Origin: a candidate division WWE3 bacterium GW2011_GWB1_41_6 | GTDB taxonomy: Bacteria; Patescibacteriota; WWE3; UBA101185; UBA10185 | Direction: 5' to 3' | Assembly (NCBI GenBank): GCA_000997355.1 | Contig: LCBS01000002.1 | Span: 11,144-54,983, forward strand | Length of the DNA: 43,840 bases | Shown: piece after piece, positions 1 through 24,070 of the stretch | How positions within the stretch are numbered: position 1 is the first letter of the stretch | How the letters are laid out: each line of letters starts with the position of its first letter | The notes under the pieces: model-generated | What the model saw: the letters and a program-made list of their open reading frames with translations, nothing else | Told to the model about the DNA's origin: nothing | The model's database searches: none | Translations under genes and position numbers: made by a program

Positions 1-438
1 ATCCACACTGTTATAAATTATGTCTTGGGACACACCTGCCGTGACCTTAACTCCATAAGGATCCATCTGTGTGTGATTAAAGACCGTAACTACAGGTTCG
101 TACTTTTTTAGCGCGGTTACTACGCTATTAATTGCACCGGGAAGCAAAGTATCATCATCACAAAAGAACCAAACGTATCTTGTAGGAGCCAACTCGTAAC
201 AAGTACACACGTTCCCGTTAAAACCCAAATTCTTCTCGTTCCGGTTATAAATTAAATTGGGAATTCTATCTTTATAGCCTGAAACCATTTCTTGGGTATT
301 ATCCGGCGAGGTGTCATCCGATACTAATATTATTACCTCATCAGTATTCTGTTTCTCTAACTCTTTGAGAATTTCTTCTAAAGTCTCGGATCGGTTATAT
401 GTAGGTATAGCAAATGTTAGTAATGGTTTATTTTCCAT
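1..438 (-). CDS. GT2 family glycosyltransferase, N-terminal part (runs off the window; absent from the ORF track)
   Basis: Reverse-strand translation from ATG at 438: MENKPLLTFAIPTYNRSETLEEILKELEKQ...VSDDTSPDNTQE...YVWFFCDDDTLLPGAI; open to the window edge; GT2 N-terminus and DDD motif. Confidence 0.9.
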   Translation of the reverse strand, partial: MENKPLLTFAIPTYNRSETLEEILKELEKQNTDEVIILVSDDTSPDNTQEMVSGYKDRIPNLIYNRNEKNLGFNGNVCTCYELAPTRYVWFFCDDDTLLPGAINSVVTALKKYEPVVTVFNHTQMDPYGVKVTAGVSQDIIYNSVD

Positions 439-1099
439 TTTCGTTTTTAGCAACAACTAAAAATTGGTAACTAAAAAGAGTTGGGAGGAGTTTATTTAAA
501 TAGTTTAAACGTGTCAGTATACCAAACTGGTTATAAGGTAATACTTTAACTAGCTCCAACCCCGCAGACTCTACCATATGTGCTCCCGATTTTACAGTAT
601 AAAATTTCAAATGAGTCTTATCTAAAGTTCCAAAATCTTTATAATCCCATTTCCCCATTAGTAACAACAACCTATTTAAAATAAATGCTACGTTAGGCAG
701 CGACACAATAACTATTCCATCCGGTTTCAAATATCTCATAAGGTTCGTTAGAACTCCCACAGGGTTGACTAAGTGTTCTAGTACATCGGCAAATATTATT
801 ACATCGTAACGTCCATCAGTGTTATCTAGTTCAAAACTATCATTATTTAAATTTACTATAAACACATTTCTGTAACCTTTTCTTAGTGCTTGTTCTGAAA
901 CTTGCCTATTAACTTCAATTCCGTCGACTACACATCGCTTCTTTTCTTTAAGTAACCTTCCCAGGTTCCCAGTCCAACACCCCACATCCAAACAAAGAGA
1001 ATCCTCAGGAACTTCTTCGTAGACGAACATGTTCAAAGAATTGGAGTAATCTCCCGATGCTATTGTAGTAGTATTGTTTGTATCTATATTATTTAACAC
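428..1099 (-). CDS. SAM-dependent methyltransferase (class I)
   Basis: CLDVGCWTGNLGRLLKEK motif I and YDVIIFADVLEHLVNP. Confidence 0.85.
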   Translation of the reverse strand: MLNNIDTNNTTTIASGDYSNSLNMFVYEEVPEDSLCLDVGCWTGNLGRLLKEKKRCVVDGIEVNRQVSEQALRKGYRNVFIVNLNNDSFELDNTDGRYDVIIFADVLEHLVNPVGVLTNLMRYLKPDGIVIVSLPNVAFILNRLLLLMGKWDYKDFGTLDKTHLKFYTVKSGAHMVESAGLELVKVLPYNQFGILTRLNYLNKLLPTLFSYQFLVVAKNENGK

Positions 1100-1898
1100 T
1101 TTTAATATAAAAAACTTCTGCTTGTTTCTTAAATAAATTATGTTTCAGTAATCTTTCTTCCAGTTTCATAATCTTTGGATATATAGAAGTAAGGTGCTTA
1201 ACTTTTGTTAATGGTACAAACCTATCCAACCATCCAAAAAGGAAAAAGAACACATGGCCGTGTCCTATTTCCTGCACTTCAAATCCAGTATCCCTTAGAA
1301 GCATAGCAACTTTTTGATAATCCACCGGATACTTCTCCGGAATTTTTCCATCAACTACCAAATCATCGGGAAACTTATTTTTAAAGAATGCCGGAAATAG
1401 TGCGAAGATATTTCTTCCTAATCTAATAAAAATGTTGTTAGAACTTAGGTCGCTTAAGAAGAACTTGCCGCCTGGTTTAAGTTTTTGATATATCTCACTG
1501 AATATATCTCCGTGATCAAATGAGTGGTGCAATACATGAAGCATAAACGCTGCATCTAAAGTACCATCCTCAATCTGCGGTATTTTATTATCTTTTATTT
1601 TATAGAAAGTGTAACCTGGATAGTACTCTTTTGCTTTTTTTACAGCCTGTTCCGCTATATCTACTCCGTAAAAAAAGTATTCTTCCAGATTTCTGGCCTC
1701 AAAAAAGATATCCAAAGAGGTGCCTGATCCGCATCCATATTCTAAAATATTTTTCTTGTCTTCTATCCAATTAAAACCTTCGATTTGCTCTTTATTTGCA
1801 TAATAATAAAAGATGTTTTTGGTAAATTCCTTTTTCCCGGCTAATGAGTTTTGGTTAAAAAATAGTTCTTGATCTGTTATTACATTGCTTTTATTCAT
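1089..1898 (-). CDS. SAM-dependent methyltransferase (class I)
   Basis: ILEYGCGSGTSLDIF motif I; LDAAFMLHVLHHSFD; KPGGKFFLSD. Confidence 0.85.
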   Translation of the reverse strand: MNKSNVITDQELFFNQNSLAGKKEFTKNIFYYYANKEQIEGFNWIEDKKNILEYGCGSGTSLDIFFEARNLEEYFFYGVDIAEQAVKKAKEYYPGYTFYKIKDNKIPQIEDGTLDAAFMLHVLHHSFDHGDIFSEIYQKLKPGGKFFLSDLSSNNIFIRLGRNIFALFPAFFKNKFPDDLVVDGKIPEKYPVDYQKVAMLLRDTGFEVQEIGHGHVFFFLFGWLDRFVPLTKVKHLTSIYPKIMKLEERLLKHNLFKKQAEVFYIKSVK

Positions 1899-1904
1899 GT
1901 TTTT

Positions 1905-2492
1905 CTAAACTTTCTGAAGCGTAATCATAAGTTCTGTCGCGCCACCTACCCAGTAGCACCACACTCTTTCAAAAAATATTGGACTTAAATTAATTAGTTT
2001 ATTCAATAACAGAACAAATGGTTTTGCGAACCATACACACTGATTAGCATGAATGTATTTTGCGTAAAATCCTTTGTTTGGGTAAAGGCCAAAATACTTT
2101 ATCTCTTTCTCAAGTATCTTGTATTCCACGTTAGTATAAAAATGCTGGTAATTATTACTTTTCAAACAGTCGAAACTCATGTATCCGAATGGCCTAATGT
2201 GTGTAATATCGGTAAAAGCACCCAAAGAAGAAAAGTGAGGAACCCTCATATACAAAATACCTCCCGGCTTCAAAAACCTATAAACTTCCTCCAATTTTCT
2301 TAAAGGATTTTCCAAATGTTCGAGCACGTGATACATATGAGCTTCATCTGCGTAATTATCAGGAAAGGGATAGGGTACTTGGTTCAAGTCATGGACAACA
2401 TCTACGTAACCCTCAATTTTAACTGTATCCACACCTATAGAGTTGGGTATTCTGGTTTTCCCACAACCGAGATTAAGTACTATTTTTTCCAT
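1905..2492 (-). CDS. Methyltransferase domain protein (methyltransf_11-like)
   Basis: Start chosen at MEKIVLNLGCGKTRIP (2492), not the ORF-track 2513, because 2493-2508 carries a -10-like element; AHMYHVLEHLENP and LKPGGILYMRVP. Confidence 0.8.
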   Translation of the reverse strand: MEKIVLNLGCGKTRIPNSIGVDTVKIEGYVDVVHDLNQVPYPFPDNYADEAHMYHVLEHLENPLRKLEEVYRFLKPGGILYMRVPHFSSLGAFTDITHIRPFGYMSFDCLKSNNYQHFYTNVEYKILEKEIKYFGLYPNKGFYAKYIHANQCVWFAKPFVLLLNKLINLSPIFFERVWCYWVGGATELMITLQKV

Positions 2493-2508
2493 ATAAAATA
2501 GTATAGCA
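2493..2508 (-). promoter_or_regulatory. Extended -10 (TGcTATACT) 7 nt before ATG of 1905-2492
   Basis: Minus strand TG-C-TATACT-attttat-ATG. Confidence 0.65.
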
Positions 2509-2551
2509 TTCACTTTTTATACAGTCCTGCATAAAGTAAAGGCTTCGCTCA

Positions 2552-2587
2552 TTGCCACCAACTTCAAAATTAAGGTATTATAGTTGA
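2552..2587 (+). promoter_or_regulatory. Sigma70-type promoter TTGCCA-N18-TATTAT, 6 nt before ATG of 2588-3871
   Basis: TTGCCA 2552-2557, TATTAT 2576-2581, agttga, ATG 2588. Confidence 0.65.
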
Positions 2588-3871
2588 ATGAAGGGTTTTT
2601 TCGTTTTTAGTTCTGTAGCAGTTGTTGTTTTTATTTTAAAACTATCAATATCAACGCTTGGCTATAATAATGACATCGAGATATGGAAACACGTATCTAG
2701 AGGAATGTTAGATGGGTTTTTAAACGGCAGGGTCATATATACATATACTCAATTTTATAACCACGGTCCAATCAGATCTTACGCATTATATTTCTTAGCG
2801 TTTGCTTTAAATAAATTATCCCTTAATGACATGTATACATTCCACATCTGGGTGGTATTTTTCCTATCCATATTCGACACTATCATGGCATTATTAATCT
2901 GGAAAATATTCGGAAAAGTATCATCGCTTATTTACTTGTTAAATCCGGTAAGTTTACTTATCACCGGATATCACTCACAGATAGAAAGCACAACTATTAT
3001 GATAGGTTTGTTAAGTTGGTTCGTTTTACTAAAGGCAAAAGATCTCTATGAAAAGAAGAATCCCAAGTATAAAAAACTCCTGATTGCCTCCGCCATAATT
3101 TTAGGATTTTCTCTGGGTATAAAACACGTTTTATTCTTTTTCCCGTTTTACGTATTTCTTATGCACCGCAGGAATAAGATCTTTAAAACCTCGGATATTA
3201 TTACTTATATCTTTATACCGTATTTTATCTTTTTCGGACTTTTCGGAATAGAAATCTTACGTGATTCTTATCATCCTGCAGCGATCACATTTAGGAATAT
3301 AAAGATGTTTGTATTTGACTACAGAAGCGGAGGGCTGTACGGTACTTCCGGTTTTGCTCAGCTTCTTCATCTATTTTTACCGGCTGCTTACATACAAAAA
3401 TACTTTTCGTGGACGCCTTTCTTTAAAGATTATTCATTTTTCTTTGTTACAAGTTTGTTATTATTTGGTGTATTGGCGATAAATAAAGTAAAGGATATTA
3501 AGATCGTGTACCCACTTTATTTACTTGCGATGTTTGCCTTTTCACCTTCCTTGGCAAATCAATATATGGCTGTCCCATTGCTAGCAATGTCTGTGTTTTA
3601 TAAAAATATTATTGCGTTCATATACTTTTTAAATACTTATATTTATTTAGCTGCAGGTCCTTCAGCAAATATTAGCGGCTTAGTCCGGTACCAAATGAAT
3701 TTACTGATAGGTAATATTAAAGTTCCATTCTTTCCTTGGAGTATGTCAACTCAGCATCAGGATAAGTATTCACAAGTGTGGGCTATACTGCTGGCAATTC
3801 TTCTTCTGTACCAGATGTACTACACTCCGACAAGAAAGCAGGTTGTTAATATAATTAAAAATTATTTATGA
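2588..3871 (+). CDS. Multi-pass membrane protein, probable GT-C fold glycosyltransferase
   Basis: 427 aa with about 10 hydrophobic segments; early-loop acidic residues (YNNDIEIWKHVSRGML) and overall layout as in GT-C enzymes; glycan locus context. Confidence 0.6.
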   Translation: MKGFFVFSSVAVVVFILKLSISTLGYNNDIEIWKHVSRGMLDGFLNGRVIYTYTQFYNHGPIRSYALYFLAFALNKLSLNDMYTFHIWVVFFLSIFDTIMALLIWKIFGKVSSLIYLLNPVSLLITGYHSQIESTTIMIGLLSWFVLLKAKDLYEKKNPKYKKLLIASAIILGFSLGIKHVLFFFPFYVFLMHRRNKIFKTSDIITYIFIPYFIFFGLFGIEILRDSYHPAAITFRNIKMFVFDYRSGGLYGTSGFAQLLHLFLPAAYIQKYFSWTPFFKDYSFFFVTSLLLFGVLAINKVKDIKIVYPLYLLAMFAFSPSLANQYMAVPLLAMSVFYKNIIAFIYFLNTYIYLAAGPSANISGLVRYQMNLLIGNIKVPFFPWSMSTQHQDKYSQVWAILLAILLLYQMYYTPTRKQVVNIIKNYL

Positions 3872-4266
3872 TTAAAAAACTATCTTTAGCAGCATACTTT
3901 TCTGCATTTACTTTTATTATCATTATGTTGGTAATTTTCATAAAAACATATACTGATGAGGGAAATAAAATAACAATACGGAAAGCCGCCAATATAACGG
4001 AGTGCCCAAAATCCTCAGATGAGGTGGATGTAACGGCAAATGTTATCGAGCAATGTGATGGAAACAAAGAATGCATCTATTCACAACCCTTTGAAAAAGC
4101 CGTATCCGGTTGTATCAATAAACATAAGGTGGAGTGGAGCTGTCAAGATTCCGGAATTTTTAAAGCTCTATATTCATCAACAAACGTCATAGATAAAAAA
4201 ACCGGTAATATAGAGACAACAATTCGCTGTCCGGGAAGAATTTTCAAACCTGCTAATAGCGTTTAA
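3868..4266 (+). CDS. Small membrane-anchored/secreted Cys-rich protein, possible SUEL/galactose-binding-lectin-like domain
   Basis: N-terminal TM/signal; ITIRKAANITEC...VIEQCDGNKECIYSQPFEKAVSGCINKHKVEWSC resembles the SUEL C-x-G-xx-x-C...C...K-x-x-V-x-Y-x-C pattern. Confidence 0.5.
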   Translation: MIKKLSLAAYFSAFTFIIIMLVIFIKTYTDEGNKITIRKAANITECPKSSDEVDVTANVIEQCDGNKECIYSQPFEKAVSGCINKHKVEWSCQDSGIFKALYSSTNVIDKKTGNIETTIRCPGRIFKPANSV

Positions 4267-4277
4267 CTACACGAAAG

Positions 4278-4293
4278 TGATATTATTACTTTT
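4278..4293 (+). promoter_or_regulatory. Extended -10 (TGaTATTAT) 7 nt before ATG of the sulfotransferase gene
   Basis: TG 4278-4279, TATTAT 4281-4286, tactttt, ATG 4294. Confidence 0.6.
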
Positions 4294-5187
4294 ATGGATT
4301 CAATAGATTTTATCGGCATCGGTGCTCCCAAAAGCGGTTCTACATGGCTTAGTAAGTGTCTGGAAGAACATCCACAAATATTACTTTCATCTAAGAAAAC
4401 TAGGAAGGAAGTACTATTCTTTAATACGGATGATATATGGGGTGAGCATAAAACAAACAGACTATCCTGTTATAATCGTGGATTTGAATGGTATCTACAG
4501 CAATTTCCTGAACCAAAAGTTGGATACTTACGTGGTGAATTTAGCGCATCGTATATGGCAGATCCAGTCGCGTATGAAAGAATTAAGGAACATTTGCCAA
4601 ATGTTAAACTAGTAGCTATTCTTAGAAATCCTGTTGATATGGTCTACTCGTCATATTGGTATTTTTATCATGGAACATTACTTGACGTCCCGGAGAGTTT
4701 TTCGGAATCTTTATCTAAAGGAATGTTTATTGATAAAGGATTTTATTATAAACACTTAAAGAAATTTTATGATAACTTTCCTGCTGATAATATCCATGTA
4801 GTTATTTACGACGATACAATTAAAAACCCTACCTCCGTCACACGTGACTTATATAATTTTTTGGGAGTAGATCCAAGTTTCATTCCCCCATCAATTGATA
4901 AGAGAATTAACAGTGCCTATGAAACAAAAAGCAAACTCTTAAAAGATATTATTCATAAGTGTATGGTCGCCATCGATAGATTAGAACTTGAGAATGTACG
5001 AATGCGAATCTTAGAGAGTAGGACACTCTTTAATATTTATTCTACAATTAATAAACGCCCCAGCCAGTATCCAAAAATGAGCGTTGATGACAGAAAAAAA
5101 TGTGTTGAGATTTTTATGGATGATATTAATTCTCTGGAAAAGTTACTCAACAGGGATTTTAGTTCCTGGAAATCGGTTGAATCTTAA
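4294..5187 (+). CDS. Sulfotransferase family protein (PAPS-dependent type)
   Basis: 5'-PSB-like GIGAPKSGSTWLSKCLEEHP and 3'-PB-like VAILRNPVDMVYSSYWYF motifs. Confidence 0.88.
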   Translation: MDSIDFIGIGAPKSGSTWLSKCLEEHPQILLSSKKTRKEVLFFNTDDIWGEHKTNRLSCYNRGFEWYLQQFPEPKVGYLRGEFSASYMADPVAYERIKEHLPNVKLVAILRNPVDMVYSSYWYFYHGTLLDVPESFSESLSKGMFIDKGFYYKHLKKFYDNFPADNIHVVIYDDTIKNPTSVTRDLYNFLGVDPSFIPPSIDKRINSAYETKSKLLKDIIHKCMVAIDRLELENVRMRILESRTLFNIYSTINKRPSQYPKMSVDDRKKCVEIFMDDINSLEKLLNRDFSSWKSVES

Positions 5188-6236
5188 CTGATACTGTTAT
5201 GGATATTCGATATAGTCTGAACCCTATGATGATAAGTATGCTCAGCTAATACTCTTTGTTTACCTGCTTCTATTATCTTTAATCTCTCATTAGGATATTT
5301 AAGATAGTGTTGTATCTTCTCCGTCCAATCGACTTTATCATCAGCAATCACTATCTCATCGCCCTCTCTAAAATATTTTCTTATGCATGCAACATCGTCA
5401 GTAATTTCAAAACCTCCGCATGCAGGTATTTTAAATGTCCGTTCGTTACAGTCTCCTCCATACTTCTTCTGATACTCCTCATGGACGTTCAAGGATACGG
5501 TGGATGATGTGTATATTTTTCTTTCATCCTCTAAACTTAATTTAGGTTTTTGCAAAGCTTTAAGATAAGGGATGTTAAAATATTGACCACCTTTTTGGAT
5601 TAAGGATAGGATACGGTCTGTAGCAGCCCAATCCTGACCGTAAGTACGAACGTTATAGATGCTCCGCATAGGGAGTATGACTTCTTTAAAAAACGCGCGT
5701 TTTTCAGGAAGATTGGTACCAAGGAAGGATATATCGGAGTGGAATCGCTCCGAATATTCCGGATAGTGCATAGTTTTGTCTGCTGCTAAAGGGATTGTGT
5801 AATGTTTATAACCGGTCTCCTTTTCAAAACCTTCCATTCGTGGATCACCGACTTCACAAACATTGTAGTATACATCCCCAAATCTGCCGGACTTTATCAT
5901 GTTGGTATATTCAGGCATATCAGACAGACCGGGAGATTCGTTAATGCGTAATTTTGATAGAGGTGATTTCCAAAACGGTATCGAGACGAAAACTTTGGCT
6001 CCATTCTTCCTTGCTTGCTGTATATTTTCCAAATCCAGAAATTTCAGAACATACGAATTAATACCTGTAAAAATTATATGAGGTTTGTATTCTTCTATTT
6101 CTTTCTTTTGGTTGCTATCAGCTGTAAGAAATCTAAAATCGTGACCTAAGTCCGTGAAAGCGTTCTTATAGCCATTGTAAATTGTCCTTCCTGCGTAGAT
6201 TGTATTAAGATGGGGAACGAAATATAATATTTTCAT
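5184..6236 (-). CDS. Glycosyltransferase, CgeB/spore-maturation-like (GT-B)
   Basis: Start at MKILYFVPHLNTIYAGRTIYNGY (6236); C-terminal CNERTFKIPACGGFEITDD...IRKYFREGDEIVIADD typical of CgeB-like GTs. Confidence 0.75.
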   Translation of the reverse strand: MKILYFVPHLNTIYAGRTIYNGYKNAFTDLGHDFRFLTADSNQKKEIEEYKPHIIFTGINSYVLKFLDLENIQQARKNGAKVFVSIPFWKSPLSKLRINESPGLSDMPEYTNMIKSGRFGDVYYNVCEVGDPRMEGFEKETGYKHYTIPLAADKTMHYPEYSERFHSDISFLGTNLPEKRAFFKEVILPMRSIYNVRTYGQDWAATDRILSLIQKGGQYFNIPYLKALQKPKLSLEDERKIYTSSTVSLNVHEEYQKKYGGDCNERTFKIPACGGFEITDDVACIRKYFREGDEIVIADDKVDWTEKIQHYLKYPNERLKIIEAGKQRVLAEHTYHHRVQTISNIHNSIS

Positions 6237-6237
6237 T

Positions 6238-6909
6238 CTAACTTTTTCTGACGAAACCTTCCCAAACGAACGGATAACTATATGAAGAGTTGTGTGTTTG
6301 AAGTAACTTTTCAACTATCCGTTTTCTTTCTTTGGCGGCATTAGGTACCGTGGTATGAAACTGAACTTGCAATTCCTTTATATGACTGATGAACCCTGAC
6401 TCAATAATCCTGTCTAATAGTGAGTACTCTCCACCTTCAATATTTATAGATATTAGATCAATATCCTTGGATAAATTTAATTCTTTTACTATCTCTGAAA
6501 CATCACGCAAGGCGATTTTCTGCTTATCTTGGCCTTCAGAATAGACTGAACTTTTTTCTCCCAACACACTGATGAACATTTCCCCATTAGTCCCCGAAAG
6601 ACCGTAATTAAATATGTGAACATTAGGGCTGTTATTATATTTTGATACAAGAGTCTTATAGAAAGTGTCTACTGGTTCAAAAATGTAAATATTTGGACTA
6701 TACTTCTTCAAGATCCTGTCAGAAAAAACACCAATATAACCACCCACGTCAAAAACAATACTGTCCTGGTTTAATACGTGATCGACTAATAAAGTTTCTT
6801 CACCGTTATCGTAAAACCACTTACCTAAATTCTCCTTGTAAATGTTATTTCCTAATATTTTGTAATATAAATAATAAAAAAAACCTGCGATTCTTTTTGC
6901 TAACTTCAT
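6238..6909 (-). CDS. FkbM family methyltransferase
   Basis: VFDVGGYIGVFSDRI, IYIFEPVDTFYKTL, DLISINIEGGEYSLLDRI; SD AGGAGGT upstream (plus strand acctcct near 6911-6917). Confidence 0.88.
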   Translation of the reverse strand: MKLAKRIAGFFYYLYYKILGNNIYKENLGKWFYDNGEETLLVDHVLNQDSIVFDVGGYIGVFSDRILKKYSPNIYIFEPVDTFYKTLVSKYNNSPNVHIFNYGLSGTNGEMFISVLGEKSSVYSEGQDKQKIALRDVSEIVKELNLSKDIDLISINIEGGEYSLLDRIIESGFISHIKELQVQFHTTVPNAAKERKRIVEKLLQTHNSSYSYPFVWEGFVRKS

Positions 6910-6919
6910 TTCCTACCTC

Positions 6920-8059
6920 CTAAGTAAACAAACTTGAAAAAATAACATTGTAATCAAAAGAAGCTGAAAATTCCACGGCGTTTTTACGATATATATCATT
7001 GATTTCGGGTTGCATAAGTTTTGTTACCGCATCCACAATATTCTCTATATTTTCCTCTATAACTATACCTGCATTTGAATCCCGGATCTGCTTAGACATC
7101 CAAGGTAAGTCAGTCAGTACCGGAGGAACTCCGCACGCCAAATACTTCTTTATTTTTCCCGGATCTGCGTAATATGTCCAGGTATCTAAACTTTTTATAT
7201 AAGGAGCTATTGCGACACAAGACTTGGCAATTTCTGCTTCTAAAACTTCATCTTCTTCTATCTTTCCTTTAAAATCACAGTATTCGCCCACACCTAAACT
7301 TGAAGCTAAGTTTTTCAACTCGATCCTGTATTCCCCACCGCCAATGATCTTGAATTTTAACCCCGGAATGTTTTTTATTAACTGAGGAAGTGCTTGTATT
7401 ACTAATTGAACACCTTGTTTCGGTATAAGTATCCCCATATAAACTAAAGTCGTTCTTTCACACTCGGTATATGAATATTTTTTTATCCGGTCCCGCCACA
7501 CACCATAAGGCACCACTTTTTGCACTTTATAAATTGACTTGGGAATACCCCACAAATTTTCCCTGGCTTCTGCCATTCTCGGAGACAAATCCCACACTTC
7601 ATCTGAATTCTTATACCCGGAAACATTAATAAACTTATATATCCGGTTTTTTAATTCCGAATCAAACCGGTTTCCCGGCACAAAATCTATTACCCAATAA
7701 ACGGTTTTTTCAACCTTTTTAATAAACTTTAACAACTCACCGGACAATGTACATAATCCATCCATCCCGATGTAGTAATCCCAAACTAACTTAGAACCGA
7801 CAACCCATTTCACTGTGTAAAACAATTCCTTTAGGTAAATCAACGGTTCCGGCCAATTCTTATAATCTCTTGATCTCTCCTCCTTACAAAAAGCTCCGTC
7901 TCTATACCATGTATAATAGCTGCATCTATCTTCAGCCTCGTTAAAACTATGGCGTATGTGAAGTACATTCTTATATTTGTTCTTGTTAAGGTAAATCACC
8001 AGATCATCGTCAGGCTGCGTAAGATATTTGTGAGCAACAATTGCAATATTTTTAGACAC
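6920..8059 (-). CDS. GT4-like (GT-B) glycosyltransferase
   Basis: TTLVYMGILIPKQGVQLVIQALPQL...FKIIGGGEYR...GKIEEDEV...ADPGKIKKYLACGVPPVLTDLP. Confidence 0.85.
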   Translation of the reverse strand: MSKNIAIVAHKYLTQPDDDLVIYLNKNKYKNVLHIRHSFNEAEDRCSYYTWYRDGAFCKEERSRDYKNWPEPLIYLKELFYTVKWVVGSKLVWDYYIGMDGLCTLSGELLKFIKKVEKTVYWVIDFVPGNRFDSELKNRIYKFINVSGYKNSDEVWDLSPRMAEARENLWGIPKSIYKVQKVVPYGVWRDRIKKYSYTECERTTLVYMGILIPKQGVQLVIQALPQLIKNIPGLKFKIIGGGEYRIELKNLASSLGVGEYCDFKGKIEEDEVLEAEIAKSCVAIAPYIKSLDTWTYYADPGKIKKYLACGVPPVLTDLPWMSKQIRDSNAGIVIEENIENIVDAVTKLMQPEINDIYRKNAVEFSASFDYNVIFSSLFT

Positions 8060-8827
8060 TATATTAACCCTCTGTTCCTAAGAAAATTGAATAAATCAAC
8101 TCTAAAAGAAGGGGGCATAATGTATCCTGTTGCTAATTGTAATATGTTGTAAATCACATCAGAAATACCATACGTATAGCCAAGGTTTCTTACAGCGTTA
8201 ATCCGCATTTTTAACGTTAACATTTCTACCCTCCTCAGTTTTCTATTACTGGTAGAATTCATAAAAACCCTATACTTCAACAAGGGGTAAGGTACTGAAG
8301 AAAATTTGTACTTGCTTCCCATTTTGAACCACAGATCTGAACATTACGACAGGATGGGCAAAGGGACTATATCTCATCATAGTTCGTTTCAAAGATCCGG
8401 GATTTGTTTTGTACGAACGGTAGGTTAACACACGATCATTCTCGTCGATGATCTGAATATCGGCGCCTACCACTCCTACTTCCGGATCATCTGAAATTAG
8501 TTTGTACTGCATCTCCAACCTCCAGGGAAAACTAACATCGTCAGCATCCATACGGGCAATGATATTCGATCTGGAAAGACCAATCCCTTTATTTAACGAA
8601 CGGGCGATATATAAATTCTTTTCGTTTCTTATAACAATAATTCTCTTATCCTTATGTATGTATTCTTTGAGGATCTCAGGTGTAGAGTCAGTAGATGCAT
8701 CATCAACAACTATAAGCTCAAACTCTTTAAAAGTTTGATTTAAAATGCTATCGATTGCATGTTTAATGTATTTTTCTCCGTTATAGACCGGTAGTACTAT
8801 TGATATAAGCGGCGTTTTATTATCCAT
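8059..8827 (-). pseudogene. GT2 family glycosyltransferase disrupted by an internal out-of-frame deletion
   Basis: ORF 8270-8827 has a normal GT2 N-terminus (LISIVLPVYNGEKYI...ARMDADD...SPFAHPVVMFR); C-terminal GT2 segment DLWFKMGSKYKFSSVPYPLLKYRV... continues in another frame (to 8059); junction about 8332-8342. Confidence 0.8.
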
Positions 8828-9815: not shown

Positions 9816-10637
9816 TTATTGATTATGTGCAAACTCGCCTGTATTTATCCGCATATCTAATTCCTCGTCGTAGATCCATTTTCTACTGCACCTATCCTCA
9901 TAGTATCTAAGAAGATATATTCTGTAAAAAACTGATGCGGTATCCCATAATACTCCACGGACAGTTGGATCCAAAAATAATGGTTTATTCCTCTTAATCT
10001 TTGATTCCTCGGTAAAATTAAGGGTTATTTTTACGGGCGCTTCGAATATTCTATCAAACCCCAAGTGACGTGCTACGGCAAGCAGTTCTACGTCAAATGC
10101 AAATTCTTTAACCACAAGCCGAGGTAACACTCTCTCTAATAGTTCCCGCCTATATACTTTAAGCCCTGTTTGTGTGTCCTTGATCTTTAGCCCAAAAAGT
10201 ACCCACACGATCATTTGATAACCCCAACTGTACAATTTACGAAGCCTTGAATAATATTTTACTTTCGAAGCTGGATGCCTTTTACTTGCAACCATTATAT
10301 CCGCCTCATACCAGATCATTTGTTCAAGCATCATTGAGATACCGTTAGGATCGATCTCCATGCCCGCGTCGATAAACGCTACATACTCGCCAGTAGAACG
10401 TGCCATACCATATCTAACCGCGTACCCCTTTCCTTTGTTATTCTCGTATCCCAAAACCTTGATCTTCTTACAATCTGCTGCACTCGCCTCTTCATAGGTA
10501 TTATCCAAAAATCCATCCACTACCACTATCATCTCAAAATCGAATCTGGTACTGTTCATTACCGTACAGATCTTTTCGATGTCTTCTTTAATAGTTTTCT
10601 CTTGTTTGTACGCGGGAACGATTATGGAAACCAGCAT
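9816..10637 (-). CDS. GT2 glycosyltransferase, dolichyl/polyprenyl-phosphate hexosyltransferase-like
   Basis: MLVSIIVPAYKQEKTI, NNKGKGYAVRYGMARSTGEYVAFIDAGMEIDP, KDTQTGLKVYRRE. Confidence 0.88.
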   Translation of the reverse strand: MLVSIIVPAYKQEKTIKEDIEKICTVMNSTRFDFEMIVVVDGFLDNTYEEASAADCKKIKVLGYENNKGKGYAVRYGMARSTGEYVAFIDAGMEIDPNGISMMLEQMIWYEADIMVASKRHPASKVKYYSRLRKLYSWGYQMIVWVLFGLKIKDTQTGLKVYRRELLERVLPRLVVKEFAFDVELLAVARHLGFDRIFEAPVKITLNFTEESKIKRNKPLFLDPTVRGVLWDTASVFYRIYLLRYYEDRCSRKWIYDEELDMRINTGEFAHNQ

Positions 10638-11880
10638 GCTTTACATAATACAACAAAATAGTTACTAGTAGAAACACTGCAACAAAAAGATTTATTTTAA
10701 TGACATCGGTCAAGCTGTCGTGGAAATAATATATAAGGATATATTGTGCAATTACGGCAGGTATCTGGAGTAGGGCTACTTTTGTTTTATTGATGGCAAG
10801 AAGGAACATCACCATGAAATTGATCAGAACATACACGCCCACAAAAAGCGAAAATAACGGAATGTACGGAACAGACGGGAGGAATTTCTCTCCGAACATT
10901 ACACCTGCGATCAATCCCGGTAGTAATGTAAACACCACCACACCACCAACAACAAGTAGCAACTGAAGGGCCAGAAACTTTTTCAGCTTGCCTGTGTAAT
11001 CCTCTCCCTTTGAGTAAGCTTCGGAGATCTGAGGAAACATAACGACCACTACCGTTCCTGCTCCAAACAACAGCACTTTGCTTACCGTAACCGTACCTGC
11101 GTAGTAACCGGCAGATAACTCATCAAAATATTTTTTGACTAAGATGATATCCATATTGTTCATTAGTATCATCCCAAGGTTTACTAGCAGTACAGGAAGA
11201 CCGAACATAACGATCTTTTTATAAAAGACCTGCAAGCTTTCCTTATTATAATCAATAAAGTTCCTGCTTGTTAGTAATGTACTTAGCGCGTACATCAGAA
11301 CAACGCTCATTGCAATTCCCATAAACACACCGGGAAGGCCCAATCCTACAATAACCAGTATCACGGGAAACACAAAACGGAATAGCCCACCTAAAACGTT
11401 ATACAAAGCATACGCTTTGAAGCGTAGCAACCCTTGTAAATAAGCGGCCGGAACGATGAGTAAATAAGTAAGACCAAGGAATGGCCCAAAATAGTAAAAA
11501 AGATCTGCGTTCTGTATGTTGAAAAAATCAGCTATAGGTTGGTGGAACGATGCAAAAAATGCAGAAATAAGTACGGCAAAAACCAACGCGAAAAAGGATA
11601 GTTTCCAATACAATTGAGTCAGTTGGTCAAAGCGGTTCTTAGCTTTAAGTTCGGAGGCTAGCTTGATAAGTGACGTGCTGACAACCATTGCAGGCACACC
11701 GGCGATGCTTGCAAAGGCTAATAAGGCATTGAATGTCCCATAATCCGCCACAGTAAGCAAACGGCCTAATATAAACTGCAATAGATAGCTAAACACACTT
11801 GCGGTAAATATTCCAACAGTCACGATAAACGTCCCTATCAATACCTGATCTTTAGTTATAGTTTTAATTCTTTCGATCAT
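10588..11880 (-). CDS. Polysaccharide flippase (Wzx/PST, MATE-like)
   Basis: Start at MIERIKTITKDQVLIGTF; LLQFILGRLLTVADYGTFNALLAFASI signature; about 12 TM. Confidence 0.88.
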   Translation of the reverse strand: MIERIKTITKDQVLIGTFIVTVGIFTASVFSYLLQFILGRLLTVADYGTFNALLAFASIAGVPAMVVSTSLIKLASELKAKNRFDQLTQLYWKLSFFALVFAVLISAFFASFHQPIADFFNIQNADLFYYFGPFLGLTYLLIVPAAYLQGLLRFKAYALYNVLGGLFRFVFPVILVIVGLGLPGVFMGIAMSVVLMYALSTLLTSRNFIDYNKESLQVFYKKIVMFGLPVLLVNLGMILMNNMDIILVKKYFDELSAGYYAGTVTVSKVLLFGAGTVVVVMFPQISEAYSKGEDYTGKLKKFLALQLLLVVGGVVVFTLLPGLIAGVMFGEKFLPSVPYIPLFSLFVGVYVLINFMVMFLLAINKTKVALLQIPAVIAQYILIYYFHDSLTDVIKINLFVAVFLLVTILLYYVKHAGFHNRSRVQTRENY

Positions 11881-11914
11881 GGGATTTCTTATTTCAGTAT
11901 TTATTATAGAACAA

Positions 11915-13576
11915 TTAGAGGCTAACCTGTAGGGGAGTACGTTCGTAAACATTATAAATATCAACTCCTCTTAGTTTCACGGATTCCACCTTCGTCAGAT
12001 TAAATCTATCTTCACCAGCCGACTGGTCATCCCAAACCGGGTATACCAAAAAGTCAGCGATCTCCGCATGGTCCGACAGGTCGGATATCACTGCCCAAGC
12101 CCCGGTCCTACGGATGAATGGCCATATCTGTGTGTAGTACTTTTCCTGGAAACCTATCACTAACTTTCTATCATCACCGCCGGCGCCTGCAAACTCCTCG
12201 ATGGACTCCCCTTCTGCAAAATCCTCATATCCCCGATCAGTTTTAATCTCCTCAAAGTAAGAGGTTACTTCTTTTTGGCCGATCATCCACTTTGGTTCCA
12301 GGATAAATATCCCCCTCTTTAATCCACCAAGCAACGGATTATAGAAAGAAAAATAATCGGGGTGCAGACGGAGTATGGTAAATGCCGCGGGAAGTAACAC
12401 AATAAAACATAGTAGAAGTGCGGTGCGGCGGCTCTTAATGAACAAACCGGCCTTGTTACAAGCCCAATGATAAAAAAACGTCGAAACCAGGCCGAAACCC
12501 ATAATAGTGGGAAGTATATAGCGGTCAAGTTTCTTGGATGGAATGGTAATTTCTATCAAGTATAGGATCGAGAAAAGCAAGGTATAAAATATGAAGTTCT
12601 TTTTACCTTTATCAATATTCTTAAAAATGAAAAGTGCGCCGATCAAACCGATCACTATGTATACTGACGATCGGATCCCCAACACTACCAGATAGAAAGT
12701 AACACCAGGGTCATCTACCAGTCGACCGAAGAAGAACTGCTCGTGACCCCGCTCAACACCTATCGTAAAAATCCCCCGGTAAACAGCCCTTAATGCTTCC
12801 CCCGGATTGACCCACATGGCCGGCCAAAATAATACAAATAAAATCACAACGGACAGTAGCCACTTTGTATAATCAAAAAAAGTTAACGAAACTGCGGTCT
12901 TCAATGAACCCCTGTTGTGCCAATACCAGATAAGCATCATCAAACCTGTAAACATCACTAAATAAAGCGAGGAAGATTTAGTCAGAATAGAAAGCGCTGC
13001 AAACAATGCCGAAACATACATCCTGCTTTTATGATTGGTATCAAAAAGATAGTAATACAGCCATACGAACGACGCGATCATGAAAGTGGACATTAAACCT
13101 TCCAGATGTATGACCCGCGTAAGAGCAATGTAGAATGGTTCAAGAGAGATTAGAATAATGGCAGGAATAGCGTATTTCTTACCGAACAAGTTCCTGAGAA
13201 CGTAGAAAACAGAGGCAAGGGTAAAGCCAATCGCTATAACAATTACCAGCTTTTGAACAAAATTCAGTTCGAAAATTGTATTAATGTTGTCGTCAAGCGG
13301 AGGATGACCCCTGAAAATATCATAGTAAAAGTTATATATCTTTACTCCAAGGCTCCCCAGCCACATGAGTGTAACACCGGGGTGATACTTCTGGATTGTA
13401 AGCTCAAAATCCAGGTTAAAAATTCCGCTTCCAAAATCATAGATACGCGATTTCCATTTCCAAACATCCGTGTTGAACTCATCGTTTCCTAATGAGGGAA
13501 TACGTGACAGGACAAAAAGTATAAGTACAGTTATTTCGTATTTTAAGTTTGAAAAAAATCGTTTTATTGAGCTCAT
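11915..13576 (-). CDS. GT39/PMT-like multi-pass glycosyltransferase
   Basis: YHPGVTLMW...SLEPFYIALTRVIHLEG...IPSKKLDRYILP; hydrophobic; paralogous motifs with 14837-16417. Confidence 0.75.
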   Translation of the reverse strand: MSSIKRFFSNLKYEITVLILFVLSRIPSLGNDEFNTDVWKWKSRIYDFGSGIFNLDFELTIQKYHPGVTLMWLGSLGVKIYNFYYDIFRGHPPLDDNINTIFELNFVQKLVIVIAIGFTLASVFYVLRNLFGKKYAIPAIILISLEPFYIALTRVIHLEGLMSTFMIASFVWLYYYLFDTNHKSRMYVSALFAALSILTKSSSLYLVMFTGLMMLIWYWHNRGSLKTAVSLTFFDYTKWLLSVVILFVLFWPAMWVNPGEALRAVYRGIFTIGVERGHEQFFFGRLVDDPGVTFYLVVLGIRSSVYIVIGLIGALFIFKNIDKGKKNFIFYTLLFSILYLIEITIPSKKLDRYILPTIMGFGLVSTFFYHWACNKAGLFIKSRRTALLLCFIVLLPAAFTILRLHPDYFSFYNPLLGGLKRGIFILEPKWMIGQKEVTSYFEEIKTDRGYEDFAEGESIEEFAGAGGDDRKLVIGFQEKYYTQIWPFIRRTGAWAVISDLSDHAEIADFLVYPVWDDQSAGEDRFNLTKVESVKLRGVDIYNVYERTPLQVSL

Positions 13577-14856
13577 AGGTCCGGGTCCCCTCCAACAATC
13601 TTTGAATCTGGTCTCAATGGCACTACTTCCGTGAGGTCTATTATGTTCATAATAGCAAAATATAAAGGAATTATAAAAAAAATCAGCGTCAGGAGGAGGA
13701 TCAAAAATCTACCTAGACTCGAAAGTTTCGGTTTTAGGTATTCACCGGCCATCACTATAAAATACCCCGCTATAATTGCGACAAAAGGATACGTGATCAT
13801 ATAGTAATGGGAACGGTTCTTATAAAATCCCGAAATATAAAAGAAGAACAAAACTGAAGGTATAGCCAAGAATAATCTTCTAATAAGGTCCGGCGAACGT
13901 TTGCGTATTATCAGATCCTTTATTGTAGCAAGGAATACGATCCAATAACCCACAAGGAAAGTGTATCCTACGTCACTGGCAATTTTCTCCCACATTGAAG
14001 TAAAAAACCTGACAATCTGTTTATGGAACTCTACCTTTCCCACGTTCGTAAACTGCCAAAAAGCCCCTGTCGGACCATCCGTCCGTGAAAAAGTCTTATA
14101 ATCCAATAGTGCGTAAGGTGTTCCCAGTATAAATCCAAAAAACGAAGCCGCAGCCGCAAGGAACAAACTGTTAATACCTTCGAATGTTATATAACTTCCC
14201 TTTTCCTTATATATCCTCAAAAAATGCGCTAAAGGTACTAAAATAGCAGACAGCCCTCCGTTATATTTAGTAGAAGCAGCAAAACCGACGAACAAACCGG
14301 CAAGGATATAATCTTCCGTTCTAAACCGCTTAAAAATATTAGTAGAACAATACAAAGCCCAGCTTAAGAAAAATGTCATAGGCACGTCTATCAGCGCGTA
14401 GTGTGAGTGGCGTACGTGAAACGGCATTAAAGCCATTGCCAAGGCGGAAAAAAGCGCAATCTTTTTGTTAAACAGGTTTTTTGCGCTCAGATAGACTGGT
14501 AATATAGTTAATGCACCGATCGTGGCTGATAGTATCCTTGAGATAAGATAAAAAATAAGGTTATCGTTCCAGAAAAGCGGTATCCACTGGATTATCAATG
14601 TCCTATAACCCCAAGCCGCCGCGTAATCCCTGAACAAGGCAAATACCTTATAAATAAAGAAGTTCATGTAGATATACAAATGAGGCCAATCAAAATGCCC
14701 CGGGTTAAGATTAAATCTCATCGCTAAAGCCGCTCTAACGACCGCAGGCTCGTCAGGATGACGTATGACCGGAAAACTATGCTGGATCCCCGCAAGCCGC
14801 AGGAGCAAAGCTAATGCAAGTATGATAAGTAGCGGATTAATCCACTTTTTTGACAT
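13573..14856 (-). CDS. GT39/PMT-like multi-pass glycosyltransferase
   Basis: HSFPVIRHPDEPAVVRAALAMRF...MPFHVRHSHYALIDVPMTFFLSWALY...KYNGGLSAILVPLAHF. Confidence 0.82.
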   Translation of the reverse strand: MSKKWINPLLIILALALLLRLAGIQHSFPVIRHPDEPAVVRAALAMRFNLNPGHFDWPHLYIYMNFFIYKVFALFRDYAAAWGYRTLIIQWIPLFWNDNLIFYLISRILSATIGALTILPVYLSAKNLFNKKIALFSALAMALMPFHVRHSHYALIDVPMTFFLSWALYCSTNIFKRFRTEDYILAGLFVGFAASTKYNGGLSAILVPLAHFLRIYKEKGSYITFEGINSLFLAAAASFFGFILGTPYALLDYKTFSRTDGPTGAFWQFTNVGKVEFHKQIVRFFTSMWEKIASDVGYTFLVGYWIVFLATIKDLIIRKRSPDLIRRLFLAIPSVLFFFYISGFYKNRSHYYMITYPFVAIIAGYFIVMAGEYLKPKLSSLGRFLILLLTLIFFIIPLYFAIMNIIDLTEVVPLRPDSKIVGGDPDL

Positions 14857-16417
14857 AGATCCTCCAATACTCCAACCCGTTCATATAAACCGATTCATCT
14901 TTTTCAAAAACTGTACCACTCGTAAGGACCTTTTCAGGGATTTCCTCGTTGATACCTAAGATAAGCAGGTCATAATCACTTGACCCGTTGACGCGTATAT
15001 CAAAGATCCGTGAGTTCATATAAATAGCTCTCATTGGCTTGGTATCGATAAAACCAACCCTAGGATAATAGCCGTATTTTTCAATAATCTTTTCTTTGAG
15101 TTCCGGTATCCCAATACCAAACGGTTTTTGGGCGATTATTTTGTTCGCGTTGTCCGTTGAGCCGAACAACGGACTTGTATAAGTGAACTGGTAAGGATGG
15201 AACAAACAGGAACTTATTATTACGAGCAAAACCGCAAGTATCATTAACCGGTAAAAATAACGGATTCTGAACTGTTCGAAACCCAAAACCGCGCTTAAAG
15301 CCATGAATGGAAATAGTGGAAGCATGTACCTGTCAATCTTCTTACTCGGTACCGACATTACAAGCAGATAAGAAAAGAAGAACGCAAAAAGAAAGGTCCA
15401 TATTTTATCCTCCCGCAAACAAAGCAGCGCACTGCCCAATCGCATACTGTTAGCTTTAATGTTATTCCTTATCTTTATCACACATACGTATAACAGCAGA
15501 AGGATTCCCGCCCAAACGACAGGAGAAACTTTCATCAGCAGCACCAGCGGGTAGAACGAATAGCCTGCGTCACGCGTGTACTCACCTAATATTATCTGTC
15601 CATGCCCATCCCTGATACCAATTCTCTCGCCTTCCAAGAATATATCCTTTATTACTGACACCGGTTCAACCCAAAGCGCGGGGAACAACGCAAATATTGT
15701 TGCTACAAAAGGAAAGGCCAAACTTAAGAAATATTTTAATGCAGGTTTAAATCCTATCCTGTAGAAGACATAAGCACCGCCTGCTAATGAAGCAAAAAGT
15801 ATCCCGCCTACTCCGATGCTTTTTGTTAAGAATGCCAGGCCCATAAAAACTCCAGCCGAAGCGCCCATAACCCAGCGGAATTTTAGAAGGTTTAGATACG
15901 CTAACAGCAATCCGTTAAACAGGAACAAAGTAAAAAGTACATCCATATGAAGCAAGCGCGAGTTCCCGAGAAAAAACGGCTCGAAAGAAAATAGTGAAAC
16001 TACCGCGATGGAACGTACAAAACCCTTAAAACCATCCGAAACCCAAATTTTTGATAATAAATAAATAGTAATTATGGATAGAATCAACTGAACCACTACC
16101 AAAGCATATTTTGCGACAAAATGAAAAACAGAGAAATTGTAGTGATTGTAAGTACTTTCTTCCGGATATAACTGTTTTACGATTTCAACGGCGGGTCCTG
16201 CGATCCACATCAGAGTGACACCGGGGTGGTAATGCTGGTAGGTTTTTTCGAACTGCCCGGTCTTCAAACCGACAACGAATTGCTCGGATCTGTAGTGCCA
16301 GTTCACACCGTCCGGATTTATGGCATCAGTACCCAATCGGTCAATTCTTGTTATAAAAAAAACTAAAGTAAACAAAGATAAAAGTAACCAACAGTAGCGG
16401 CTGTTAAAGTTCGACAT
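14837..16417 (-). CDS. GT39/PMT-like multi-pass glycosyltransferase
   Basis: YHPGVTLMW...SFEPFFLGNSRLLHMDVLFTLF...VPSKKIDRYMLP. Confidence 0.78.
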   Translation of the reverse strand: MSNFNSRYCWLLLSLFTLVFFITRIDRLGTDAINPDGVNWHYRSEQFVVGLKTGQFEKTYQHYHPGVTLMWIAGPAVEIVKQLYPEESTYNHYNFSVFHFVAKYALVVVQLILSIITIYLLSKIWVSDGFKGFVRSIAVVSLFSFEPFFLGNSRLLHMDVLFTLFLFNGLLLAYLNLLKFRWVMGASAGVFMGLAFLTKSIGVGGILFASLAGGAYVFYRIGFKPALKYFLSLAFPFVATIFALFPALWVEPVSVIKDIFLEGERIGIRDGHGQIILGEYTRDAGYSFYPLVLLMKVSPVVWAGILLLLYVCVIKIRNNIKANSMRLGSALLCLREDKIWTFLFAFFFSYLLVMSVPSKKIDRYMLPLFPFMALSAVLGFEQFRIRYFYRLMILAVLLVIISSCLFHPYQFTYTSPLFGSTDNANKIIAQKPFGIGIPELKEKIIEKYGYYPRVGFIDTKPMRAIYMNSRIFDIRVNGSSDYDLLILGINEEIPEKVLTSGTVFEKDESVYMNGLEYWRIYVKKVD

Positions 16418-16452
16418 ACTAATAGAGTAATTGATTGGCGGTTTTTAATCAA
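16418..16452 (-). promoter_or_regulatory. Promoter TTGATT-N17-TACTCT, 6 nt before ATG of 14837-16417
   Basis: Minus strand TTGATT (16452-16447), TACTCT (16429-16424), attagt, ATG 16417. Confidence 0.45.
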
Positions 16453-16564
16453 ACGGTCAAGTTATACGTAAAGATCAAATTTTCCATTCCGAAAAATTTT
16501 ATACCGATGCTTCATAAGTGTGAGTTCGGGCAAACGGTTTTTAAGAACGAAAAATAAAAATCTT

Positions 16565-16604
16565 AGGGGGAGGTGTTGAACTATGCGTACTTCCCCCTCT
16601 TTTT
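16565..16604. terminator. Bidirectional terminator-like stem-loop between divergent genes
   Basis: AGGGGGAGGT-gttgaactatgcgt-ACTTCCCCCT (10 bp with one G-T wobble) followed by CTTTTTG on +, and AAGATTTTTATTTTT on -. Confidence 0.75.
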
Positions 16605-16610
16605 GCCTTG

Positions 16611-16627
16611 TGATAGTATAAGCAAGT
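16611..16627 (+). promoter_or_regulatory. Extended -10 (TGaTAGTAT) 8 nt before ATG of the LABN gene
   Basis: TG 16611-16612, TAGTAT 16614-16619, aagcaagt, ATG 16628. Confidence 0.45.
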
Positions 16628-16987
16628 ATGCTTCAACAGCTTCTTCAATTGATCCAAAAATTTTGGGATCCGTGGATAATATTCGGATTTGCTGCACAGT
16701 TCGTATTTTTCCTTAGATTTGCCGTGCAGTGGTGGGTTTCCGAAAAGAAAAAGGAAAGTGTCATACCCGTAGCATTTTGGTACTTAAGCCTGGTAGGGAC
16801 CGTAATGATACTCGCATACTCCATACGCCAGAAAGATATAGTCTTCATCACCGCGTCCATACTAAACGCAATGATATATATACGTAACCTGTCGCTTATT
16901 CACTCAAAGAAAAAGGCTGAAAAAATTGTAGTAAACCCGACTGACGGTAAGGTAGATAGTACCGTTATTGAATCGTCAAACGATTAG
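16628..16987 (+). CDS. Lipid A biosynthesis N-terminal (LABN) domain protein, stand-alone
   Basis: FAAQFVFFLRFAVQWWVSEKKKESVIPVAFWYLSLVGTVMILAYSIRQKDIVFITASILNAMIYIRNLSLI matches the LABN pattern. Confidence 0.85.
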   Translation: MLQQLLQLIQKFWDPWIIFGFAAQFVFFLRFAVQWWVSEKKKESVIPVAFWYLSLVGTVMILAYSIRQKDIVFITASILNAMIYIRNLSLIHSKKKAEKIVVNPTDGKVDSTVIESSND

Positions 16988-18447
16988 AACCTTTTTAAAA
17001 CGCTTAATTTCCTAAGCACGAATTGGAAATCCTCTTTATTGTAGAAACGGGCTATGTATGTTCCTGCTATATAAACACCTACCAAGACTATATATAAGGG
17101 TAATTTGATCCATATATTTTCTATGAACCCGATATAGGCTATCGCCAAACCTTCTACTAAAAGTAGAATATGGTCATGAGTTATGAACTTAAATTTCAGC
17201 CTGATTTGCGAAACTGAGATCAGAAGCGCGAAAGATAACAACGCGCCGACTACTAAACCGTAGGCCATAGCCTCAACACTTCCGAGATACATCCGCGCGG
17301 CAAAATAGAAAAGTGCAGTACCGGCTAATAGAACGATGAAACTTGCCACCATTTCTTTCACAAGCTTGGCGGGAATTATCACGCTGGATTTGATTATATT
17401 CACGAACGAATAAAACACGAACGCAAATACCAGGGGAAGTATCAGTGGCATGGACGGATCATATTTAGATCCCCCGACTGCAAGACGTACTATCTCAGGA
17501 GCCCAGAAAACCGCCGAACTTCCTGCAATAACAATAAATGCAAACAGTTTGTTGAAGTTCTGGGAAAATATTCCTTTAAATCCCTCTCTATCATGAACGT
17601 ACTTGTCCGAAAATACGGGTAAATTGACATCCGTTACCGCATCGGATACGTTCATCAGTTTTTTTGAGTAAAGAAGAGCGAATCCAAAATATCCTACAAT
17701 CTCAGCATCAACGCTCAGTCCGAGCAAATTAGGTCCGAGCTTTTCCCAGTTTGTGTAAATGATCTTTACAAGATAAATTCCGATACTAATAGAAAACAGC
17801 TCTCTGAATAACCTCTTGAAATCGTTCTTATCGGGAAGCTCCAACTCACCTCTCATTGGTTTGAATGCCAAATACGATAAGACAATCGTGGCAACAATAT
17901 TAAAACCAAGCAATGCGAAAAAATAACCGTTTACGCGGTACCGATATACAAGTGGAATATACAAAGCAACACTAACCAAGGCAATAAGCGCCTGGTACAG
18001 GAAAAGGTGCTTGAACCTCTTTGTTCCGGCGATCACCGAGTTCAATATACTTTGAAAACCCTGAAATAAAAGGACTACCGCGTAAAGTTTTAACGGAAAT
18101 GAGATTTCAGGGCTGCTGTATATATCTCCGGACAATTTATCGGAGTAGAAGAACAGGCCTATGGCTATTGGAATAGTAACGATATAACGGATTACTACTG
18201 AAGTTATAAAAATCTTAAAGATCTCCTTGTTATCTTTCGCCGCCGAAACTTCCCGCGTACTTGCGGATGCCAACCCCAAATGCTGATATATCCCAAGCGC
18301 CCCTCCAAGAGATACAGCCAGTTGCACCAAACCCCATTCCGGGACGGTAAGCAACCTGACGATAAAAAAGGATTGGATAATACCCAATGCCATCGCTGTA
18401 CCCCGGGATGCGAAGCTTATCACCTGCCATTTAGCAAGATCTCTCAT
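16984..18447 (-). CDS. Polysaccharide flippase (Wzx/PST-like)
   Basis: SFIVRLLTVPEWGLVQLAVSLGGALGIYQHLGLASASTREVSAAK; about 12 TM. Confidence 0.87.
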   Translation of the reverse strand: MRDLAKWQVISFASRGTAMALGIIQSFFIVRLLTVPEWGLVQLAVSLGGALGIYQHLGLASASTREVSAAKDNKEIFKIFITSVVIRYIVTIPIAIGLFFYSDKLSGDIYSSPEISFPLKLYAVVLLFQGFQSILNSVIAGTKRFKHLFLYQALIALVSVALYIPLVYRYRVNGYFFALLGFNIVATIVLSYLAFKPMRGELELPDKNDFKRLFRELFSISIGIYLVKIIYTNWEKLGPNLLGLSVDAEIVGYFGFALLYSKKLMNVSDAVTDVNLPVFSDKYVHDREGFKGIFSQNFNKLFAFIVIAGSSAVFWAPEIVRLAVGGSKYDPSMPLILPLVFAFVFYSFVNIIKSSVIIPAKLVKEMVASFIVLLAGTALFYFAARMYLGSVEAMAYGLVVGALLSFALLISVSQIRLKFKFITHDHILLLVEGLAIAYIGFIENIWIKLPLYIVLVGVYIAGTYIARFYNKEDFQFVLRKLSVLKRF

Positions 18448-20537: not shown

Positions 20538-20552
20538 ATTTTGTAATGCGCC

Positions 20553-21239
20553 TTAGTCAACAAACCTATATTTGATCAAAGTGTAAAGCGCTGAGATACC
20601 GTCTTTCCAGGTGATCTTCTTGCCTTCACTGAAACTTCTTCCTTTATAGCTGATGGGAACTTCCCTGATCCTCATTTTGGATTTTAATATCTTTGCGGTG
20701 ATCTCAGGTTCGAAATTAAACCGTGATGACCTTATATTTATATTGCGTACAAAATCCCCGGGCAAAAGTTTGTAACAGGTTTCCATATCGGTCAGAAGTA
20801 CTCCGTATAGAACATTGGTAACCAATGTCAAAAGTTTGTTTCCCCAATAATGCAAACTGGACATATCCTCATAGTTCCCTGAAAAACGTGAGCCGTATAC
20901 CACACTTACATTTTCCTCTTCAAGTCCTCTGATAAGTTTTAAATAATCCTGAGGGTCATATTCCAAGTCGGCATCCTGCACGATCACATAATCTCCTGTC
21001 GTCTGTTTAAAACCATCCCGCAGTGCCGCTCCTTTGCCCTCGTTTGTTTTCTTGAAAAAAATCTTAAGGTCGGGCTGATCATTCCCTATCTGTCTTAAGA
21101 TACCTATGGAACCATCGGTAGAAGCATCGTCGACTAGAATAATCTCCACATCCAAACCTTCAACTGCTTTCACTTTTTCGATGATCTCTTTTAATGTGGT
21201 TTTTTCGTTATAAACCGGTATTACTACAGAAAGTTTCAT
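20553..21239 (-). CDS. GT2 glycosyltransferase, polyprenyl/dolichol-phosphate mannosyl(glucosyl)transferase-like
   Basis: LSVVIPVYNEKTTLKEIIEKV...DDASTDGS...KGAALRDGFKQTTGDYVIVQDADLEYDPQDY. Confidence 0.9.
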   Translation of the reverse strand: MKLSVVIPVYNEKTTLKEIIEKVKAVEGLDVEIILVDDASTDGSIGILRQIGNDQPDLKIFFKKTNEGKGAALRDGFKQTTGDYVIVQDADLEYDPQDYLKLIRGLEEENVSVVYGSRFSGNYEDMSSLHYWGNKLLTLVTNVLYGVLLTDMETCYKLLPGDFVRNINIRSSRFNFEPEITAKILKSKMRIREVPISYKGRSFSEGKKITWKDGISALYTLIKYRFVD

Positions 21240-21272
21240 GAAGCGGCTTTCTAGTACAATGTCGTACCTAAG

Positions 21273-22829: not shown

Positions 22830-22843
22830 TGTATAAAAGGGCA

Positions 22844-23980: not shown

Positions 23981-23992
23981 AACGCAATTATA
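23981..23992 (-). promoter_or_regulatory. Consensus -10 TATAAT 6 nt before ATG of 22844-23980
   Basis: Minus strand TATAAT (23992-23987)-tgcgtt-ATG. Confidence 0.65.
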
Positions 23993-24055
23993 GACGTTGC
24001 GGCCGAACCTAGCTACACTTACCGCCTCAACCCACGTAATTTATAACAACCGGCG

Positions 24056-24070
24056 TGATAAAATAGTCGT
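24056..24070 (+). promoter_or_regulatory. Extended -10 (TGaTAAAAT) 6 nt before ATG of 24071-25207
   Basis: TG 24056-24057, TAAAAT 24059-24064, agtcgt, ATG 24071. Confidence 0.6.

Follow-up and report, generated by a model that had tools for sequence, protein, structure and literature searches.

A divergent, membrane-anchored domain related to rhamnose-binding lectins, next to a PAPS-type sulfotransferase in a surface-glycan locus of a candidate division WWE3 bacterium

A small open reading frame encoding 132 amino acids (W132; positions 3868..4266, plus strand) in a candidate division WWE3 genome appears to specify a membrane-anchored domain of the RBL/SUEL (rhamnose-binding lectin) type. We propose that W132 is lineage-specific together with the GT-C gene that it overlaps, and that it is a surface-displayed binder made beside a sulfotransferase that decorates a polysaccharide. 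We give this joint reading a probability of roughly 60%. The analysis covered a window of 43,840 nucleotides (G000:C2:11144-54983) from a genome of 938 kb in 54 contigs that is 85.7% complete, and all genes are mechanical ORF calls.

W132 was found where the initial annotation had placed it, and the layout described there (ATGA overlap, TM anchor, six cysteines, and spacing motifs) was seen in the ORFs and the translation. The ATG of W132 overlaps the stop codon of an upstream ORF encoding a multi-pass membrane protein of 427 amino acids (2588..3871, plus strand) as ATGA. Residues 7-25 of W132 form a single strong TM segment at the N-terminus (mean hydropathy 2.6), and the remainder carries a six-Cys domain (about residues 35-121) with cysteines at positions 46, 63, 69, 82, 92, and 121 and the motifs C63-D-G-N-K-E-C69, G81-C82, and K85-x-x-V88-x-W90-x-C92. 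We describe the product as a TM anchor plus an RBL/SUEL-like domain from profile searches, a structure model, and the ATGA overlap. The 427-aa protein had no significant match in Pfam and NCBIfam; its hydrophobic, multi-TM character and its gene context suggest a GT-C-like glycosyltransferase. A TATTAT box lies 6 nt before its ATG.

The resemblance of the domain to SUEL lectins, noticed earlier from cysteine spacing, did not extend to direct family membership: W132 alone scored above the cut-off for no Pfam or NCBIfam family, including PF02140, and scanning its own genome with PF02140 gave no match. A single-sequence search of the PDB returned three non-significant matches (best E 0.44), two of which, P113 (E 0.57) and CSL3 (E 1.8), have the RBL fold. 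The plasmid sequences gave a marginal match, Paraburkholderia WP_253045855.1 (E=2), which aligned pairwise with W132 at 1e-8. From this protein, we reached a family with members in Caballeronia and Paraburkholderia, which extended further to Deltaproteobacteria, Syntrophobacter, Maritalea, Bdellovibrionaceae, and one IMG/VR contig. Two profiles built without W132 ranked it first among the ORFs of the window, at 30.4 bits (E=8.5e-9) for six Burkholderiaceae sequences and 29.0 bits (E=2.3e-8) for 28 bacterial relatives. Across about 40,000 shuffles of the W132 domain, half of them with the cysteines fixed, the highest scores were 18.3 and 23.2, respectively. In alignment A4, which comprises 29 sequences and includes W132, all six cysteines are invariant, and its profile matched the L-rhamnose-binding lectins 5h4s (6.8e-12), CSL3 (9.4e-9), and CSL2 (1.4e-5) in the PDB, with weaker matches to latrophilin-family chains (from 0.006). 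PF02140 was matched at E<=0.1 by 17 of the 29 members, and one bacterial relative, a three-domain protein (L092), exceeded the gathering cut-off with 49.8 bits. Because profiles and bacterial intermediates connect W132 to RBLs, the sequence evidence supports W132 as a divergent, membrane-anchored RBL/SUEL-like domain, homologous via these intermediates.

The Burkholderiaceae members (L045, L047-L051, and L061-L096) make up a small secreted RBL-like family, some of whose members are unannotated; those scanned whole had PF02140 scores below the cut-off or none. The sequences of alignment A1 varied too much to yield a usable search pattern. Several candidates were discarded: a Paracoccus match (H2) does not fit the cysteine pattern, weak tblastn matches in relatives (L002-L007) had internal stops or no cysteine pattern and were attributed to chance, and PF02140 matches in genomes of the phylum were all below the cut-off, many with stops, and were also judged to be chance.

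AlphaFold2 predicted W132 poorly from the single sequence (pLDDT 51) and with a pLDDT of 83.7 and a pTM of 0.66 when supplied with alignment A4. The latter model contains strands at residues 35-45 and 50-54, a helix at 56-63, strands at 68-74 and 83-92, and a C-terminal hairpin, a b-b-a-b-b order that agrees with the RBL fold. A Foldseek search with the model found nothing at E<=0.001, and the 50 matches listed included no RBL chain. Most bacterial members retain a YG motif and some a GDP motif; W132 has neither. According to alignment A4, it also lacks the GTY motif, and the loop around this position is shortened. Rhamnose-binding RBLs have the GTY motif in common, and P113, which has the RBL fold without GTY, is regarded as probably not a lectin (PMC7482062). 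We do not claim sugar binding by W132 because the GTY, YG, and GDP motifs are missing; sugar binding is doubtful on these motifs, and 'lectin' here denotes kinship.

We searched for relatives of W132 and its neighbors in other genomes. No W132 relative was found in 143 related genomes, in 380 genomes of the phylum, or in scans of genome contigs and viral contigs. The GT-C gene had one homologue in 136 relatives, with 32% identity, located beside a GT2-like ORF and without W132. The combination of GT-C gene, W132, and sulfotransferase occurred in no other genome sampled, an absence that the initial annotation had itself named as counting against its proposal of neighboring genes that make, sulfate, and bind a sugar. 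Of that proposal, the kinship to SUEL lectins and the sulfotransferase were supported, the binding role is doubtful, and conservation of the three genes was not seen in the relatives sampled. As judged from these comparisons, W132 is a lineage-specific addition and the three genes are not a conserved module.

The genes downstream include the conserved part of this surface-glycan locus. On the minus strand, the window encodes a glycosyltransferase (PF13524; 5184..6314), an FkbM-like methyltransferase (6238..6909), and a GT4-type glycosyltransferase (6920..8059), and these genes and the adjoining GT2 gene (5184-8827 in all) have homologues in genome G038 that are ordered alike and lie next to two sulfotransferases, with identities of 48, 47.5, 60, and 49%, respectively; the homologue of the first adjoins a sulfotransferase. 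In the window, a frameshift apparently divides the GT2 gene (8059-8827, minus strand) into 8270-8827 and 8059-8322, and its homologue in L105 (13013-13849) is a single ORF of 278 amino acids. A conserved surface-glycan block with GT2, Wzx-type flippase (PF13440), and PMT-like GT-C genes follows (9816..16417, minus strand). Its genes from 9816 to 14856 are syntenic with G002 and G009, both of which have a sulfotransferase in that locus. Elsewhere, G002 encodes a 451-aa protein with 54 cysteines (L107, 1076-2431). The GC content is 33-36% for the genes from 428 to 5187 versus 39-44% in the block 9816-25207, consistent with variability of the low-GC segment 428-5187 within an otherwise conserved surface-glycan locus.

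The gene after W132 (4294..5187, plus strand) encodes a PAPS-type sulfotransferase resembling heparan-sulfate 3-OST, as the initial annotation had recognized in part. It matched PF13469 (2.3e-18) and PF00685 (4.4e-18), and the translation contains the 5'-PSB motif PKSGSTWL and the 3'-PB motif RNPVDMVYSSYW. Its PDB matches included 3rnl (2.9e-21) and 1zrh (3-OST-1; 2.5e-11), and homologues were present in five relatives. A TATTAT box (4281..4293, plus strand), part of a putative leaderless-type promoter, ends 7 nt upstream of the ATG of this gene. Of 23 gene starts tested in the window, 6 had a TATAAT-like box at a distance of 5-7 nt from the start codon against a shuffle mean of 1.4 (P=0.0018), which suggests leaderless transcripts in the window; boxed starts include 2588, 4294, 22844-23980 (minus strand), and 24071. 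Because start-proximal boxes exceed those in shuffles across the window genes, the leaderless-type promoter proposed earlier for the sulfotransferase is credible.

We then looked for a source of PAPS. Neither ATP sulfurylase (Sat) nor APS kinase was found in the genome of the window, which does not prove their absence because about 14% of the genome is missing. In genome G034, a Sat-APS kinase fusion clusters with genes for an ABC transporter and three sulfotransferases. In G038, APS kinase occurs without Sat; it lies about 6 kb from the sulfotransferases of that genome and is fused to a cytidylyltransferase-like domain; the ORF in L105 (15488-16225) encodes 245 amino acids, with the cytidylyltransferase-like domain preceding the APS kinase domain and sulfotransferases nearby. 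In G002, about 100 kb separate a Sat-APS kinase from the sulfotransferase locus, and the models used found neither Sat nor APS kinase in G009 (near-complete, single contig) and G032. Among 371 genomes of the phylum, Sat scored above the cut-off in 8 and a sulfotransferase was found at E<=0.001 in 28, with both present in 4; this co-occurrence (4/8 Sat genomes versus 28/371 overall) has a Fisher P of 0.0015, uncorrected for shared ancestry. Sat ORFs lie in L104 (6974-8743), in L107 (7823-9553), and in G072, G300, G376, G126, G354, G214, and G303. The phylum frames are open over 548-926 amino acids, and the APS kinase fusion was verified with Pfam in L104 and L107 only. CysQ-like ORFs, recognized by eye from the sequence, lie beside Sat in G376, G126, G354, and G303. 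Among the titles and abstracts listed, our literature search, which had partial coverage, found no earlier report of a PAPS synthetase near sulfotransferases in this phylum.

Glycan sulfation by this organism is plausible. A more far-reaching scenario, which we consider unlikely as a whole, is that some members of the phylum make sulfated surface polysaccharides via their own PAPS synthetase, a fused ATP sulfurylase-APS kinase often encoded beside a CysQ-like gene, and that the organism of the window has its PAPS supply in the missing sequence or takes PAPS from a host and displays a repurposed RBL-fold attachment receptor.

Other explanations for W132 were weighed against the joint reading. 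It could serve the overlapping GT-C-like enzyme as an accessory subunit, stabilizing it or presenting its acceptor, and not act as a free surface binder. The start-stop overlap of the two genes and the single TM segment, which fits a membrane partner, speak for such a subunit, but the sole GT-C homologue found has no W132-like neighbor and most W132 relatives are secreted, either as stand-alone proteins or as domains within larger ones; we hold a subunit role to be improbable. Slightly less probable still is that W132 is a true lectin for a sulfated or rhamnose/galactose-containing glycan of this locus. Although W132 is homologous to L-rhamnose-binding lectins and its gene sits within a glycan locus, it is not co-inherited with the sulfotransferase and lacks both GTY and the surrounding loop, and the GTY-less P113 was considered an unlikely sugar binder (PMC7482062). 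That W132 is an unrelated Cys-rich orphan resembling RBLs by chance seems very remote: single-sequence searches gave no better than E 0.44 in the PDB and 2 in plasmids and its model gave no Foldseek match, as such an orphan might, but profiles that had not seen W132 detected it well above the shuffles, including those keeping the cysteine positions.

Under the joint reading, W132 would be made together with the GT-C-like protein, and both genes would have entered the variable, low-GC part of the surface-polysaccharide locus as a lineage-specific insertion. By the positive-inside rule, the Cys domain is predicted to lie outside the cell, a location that would allow three disulfides to form. The PAPS-dependent sulfotransferase may decorate the polysaccharide of the locus; its clustering with the same glycosyltransferases was observed in a relative, and the substrate is our inference. 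W132 would most likely be a small surface-displayed binding domain for the cell's own glycan or for a partner or host surface, and its ligand need not be a sugar. A membrane-anchored RBL-like domain in a reduced-genome lineage is a testable candidate for surface recognition, and the presence of a PAPS synthetase near sulfotransferases in a few phylum genomes suggests that glycans are sulfated in cells in which this would not be expected.

To our knowledge, rhamnose-binding-lectin domains of the animal type have rarely been described in bacteria. W132 shares with SUEL_Lectin/RBL domains (PF02140; CSL3, 5h4s, and latrophilin RBL) the CDG-x3-C, GC, and VxWxC framework, the predicted b-b-a-b-b order, and profile homology via bacterial members. 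It differs from them in lacking AxYG, GDP, and GTY motifs, in its shortened loop and single TM anchor, and in an extra C-terminal hairpin with the sixth cysteine, which is also present in bacterial members. Indeed, the secreted RBL-like proteins of Burkholderiaceae (e.g., WP_253045855.1), Deltaproteobacteria, and Bdellovibrionaceae have the same six cysteines and the C-terminal strand bearing the sixth, whereas they have signal-peptide-like starts or lie within larger proteins and keep a YG-x-NC motif; W132, with its membrane anchor, shares only about 15-28% identity with them. The N-terminal domains of Plasmodium P113 (6z2l) likewise combine kinship to the RBL fold with the lack of a GTY motif, but they are two tandem domains with a protein ligand (RH5). 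The sulfotransferase of the window shares its PAPS-binding motifs and domain with heparan-sulfate glucosaminyl 3-O-sulfotransferase-like enzymes (3rnl and 1zrh).
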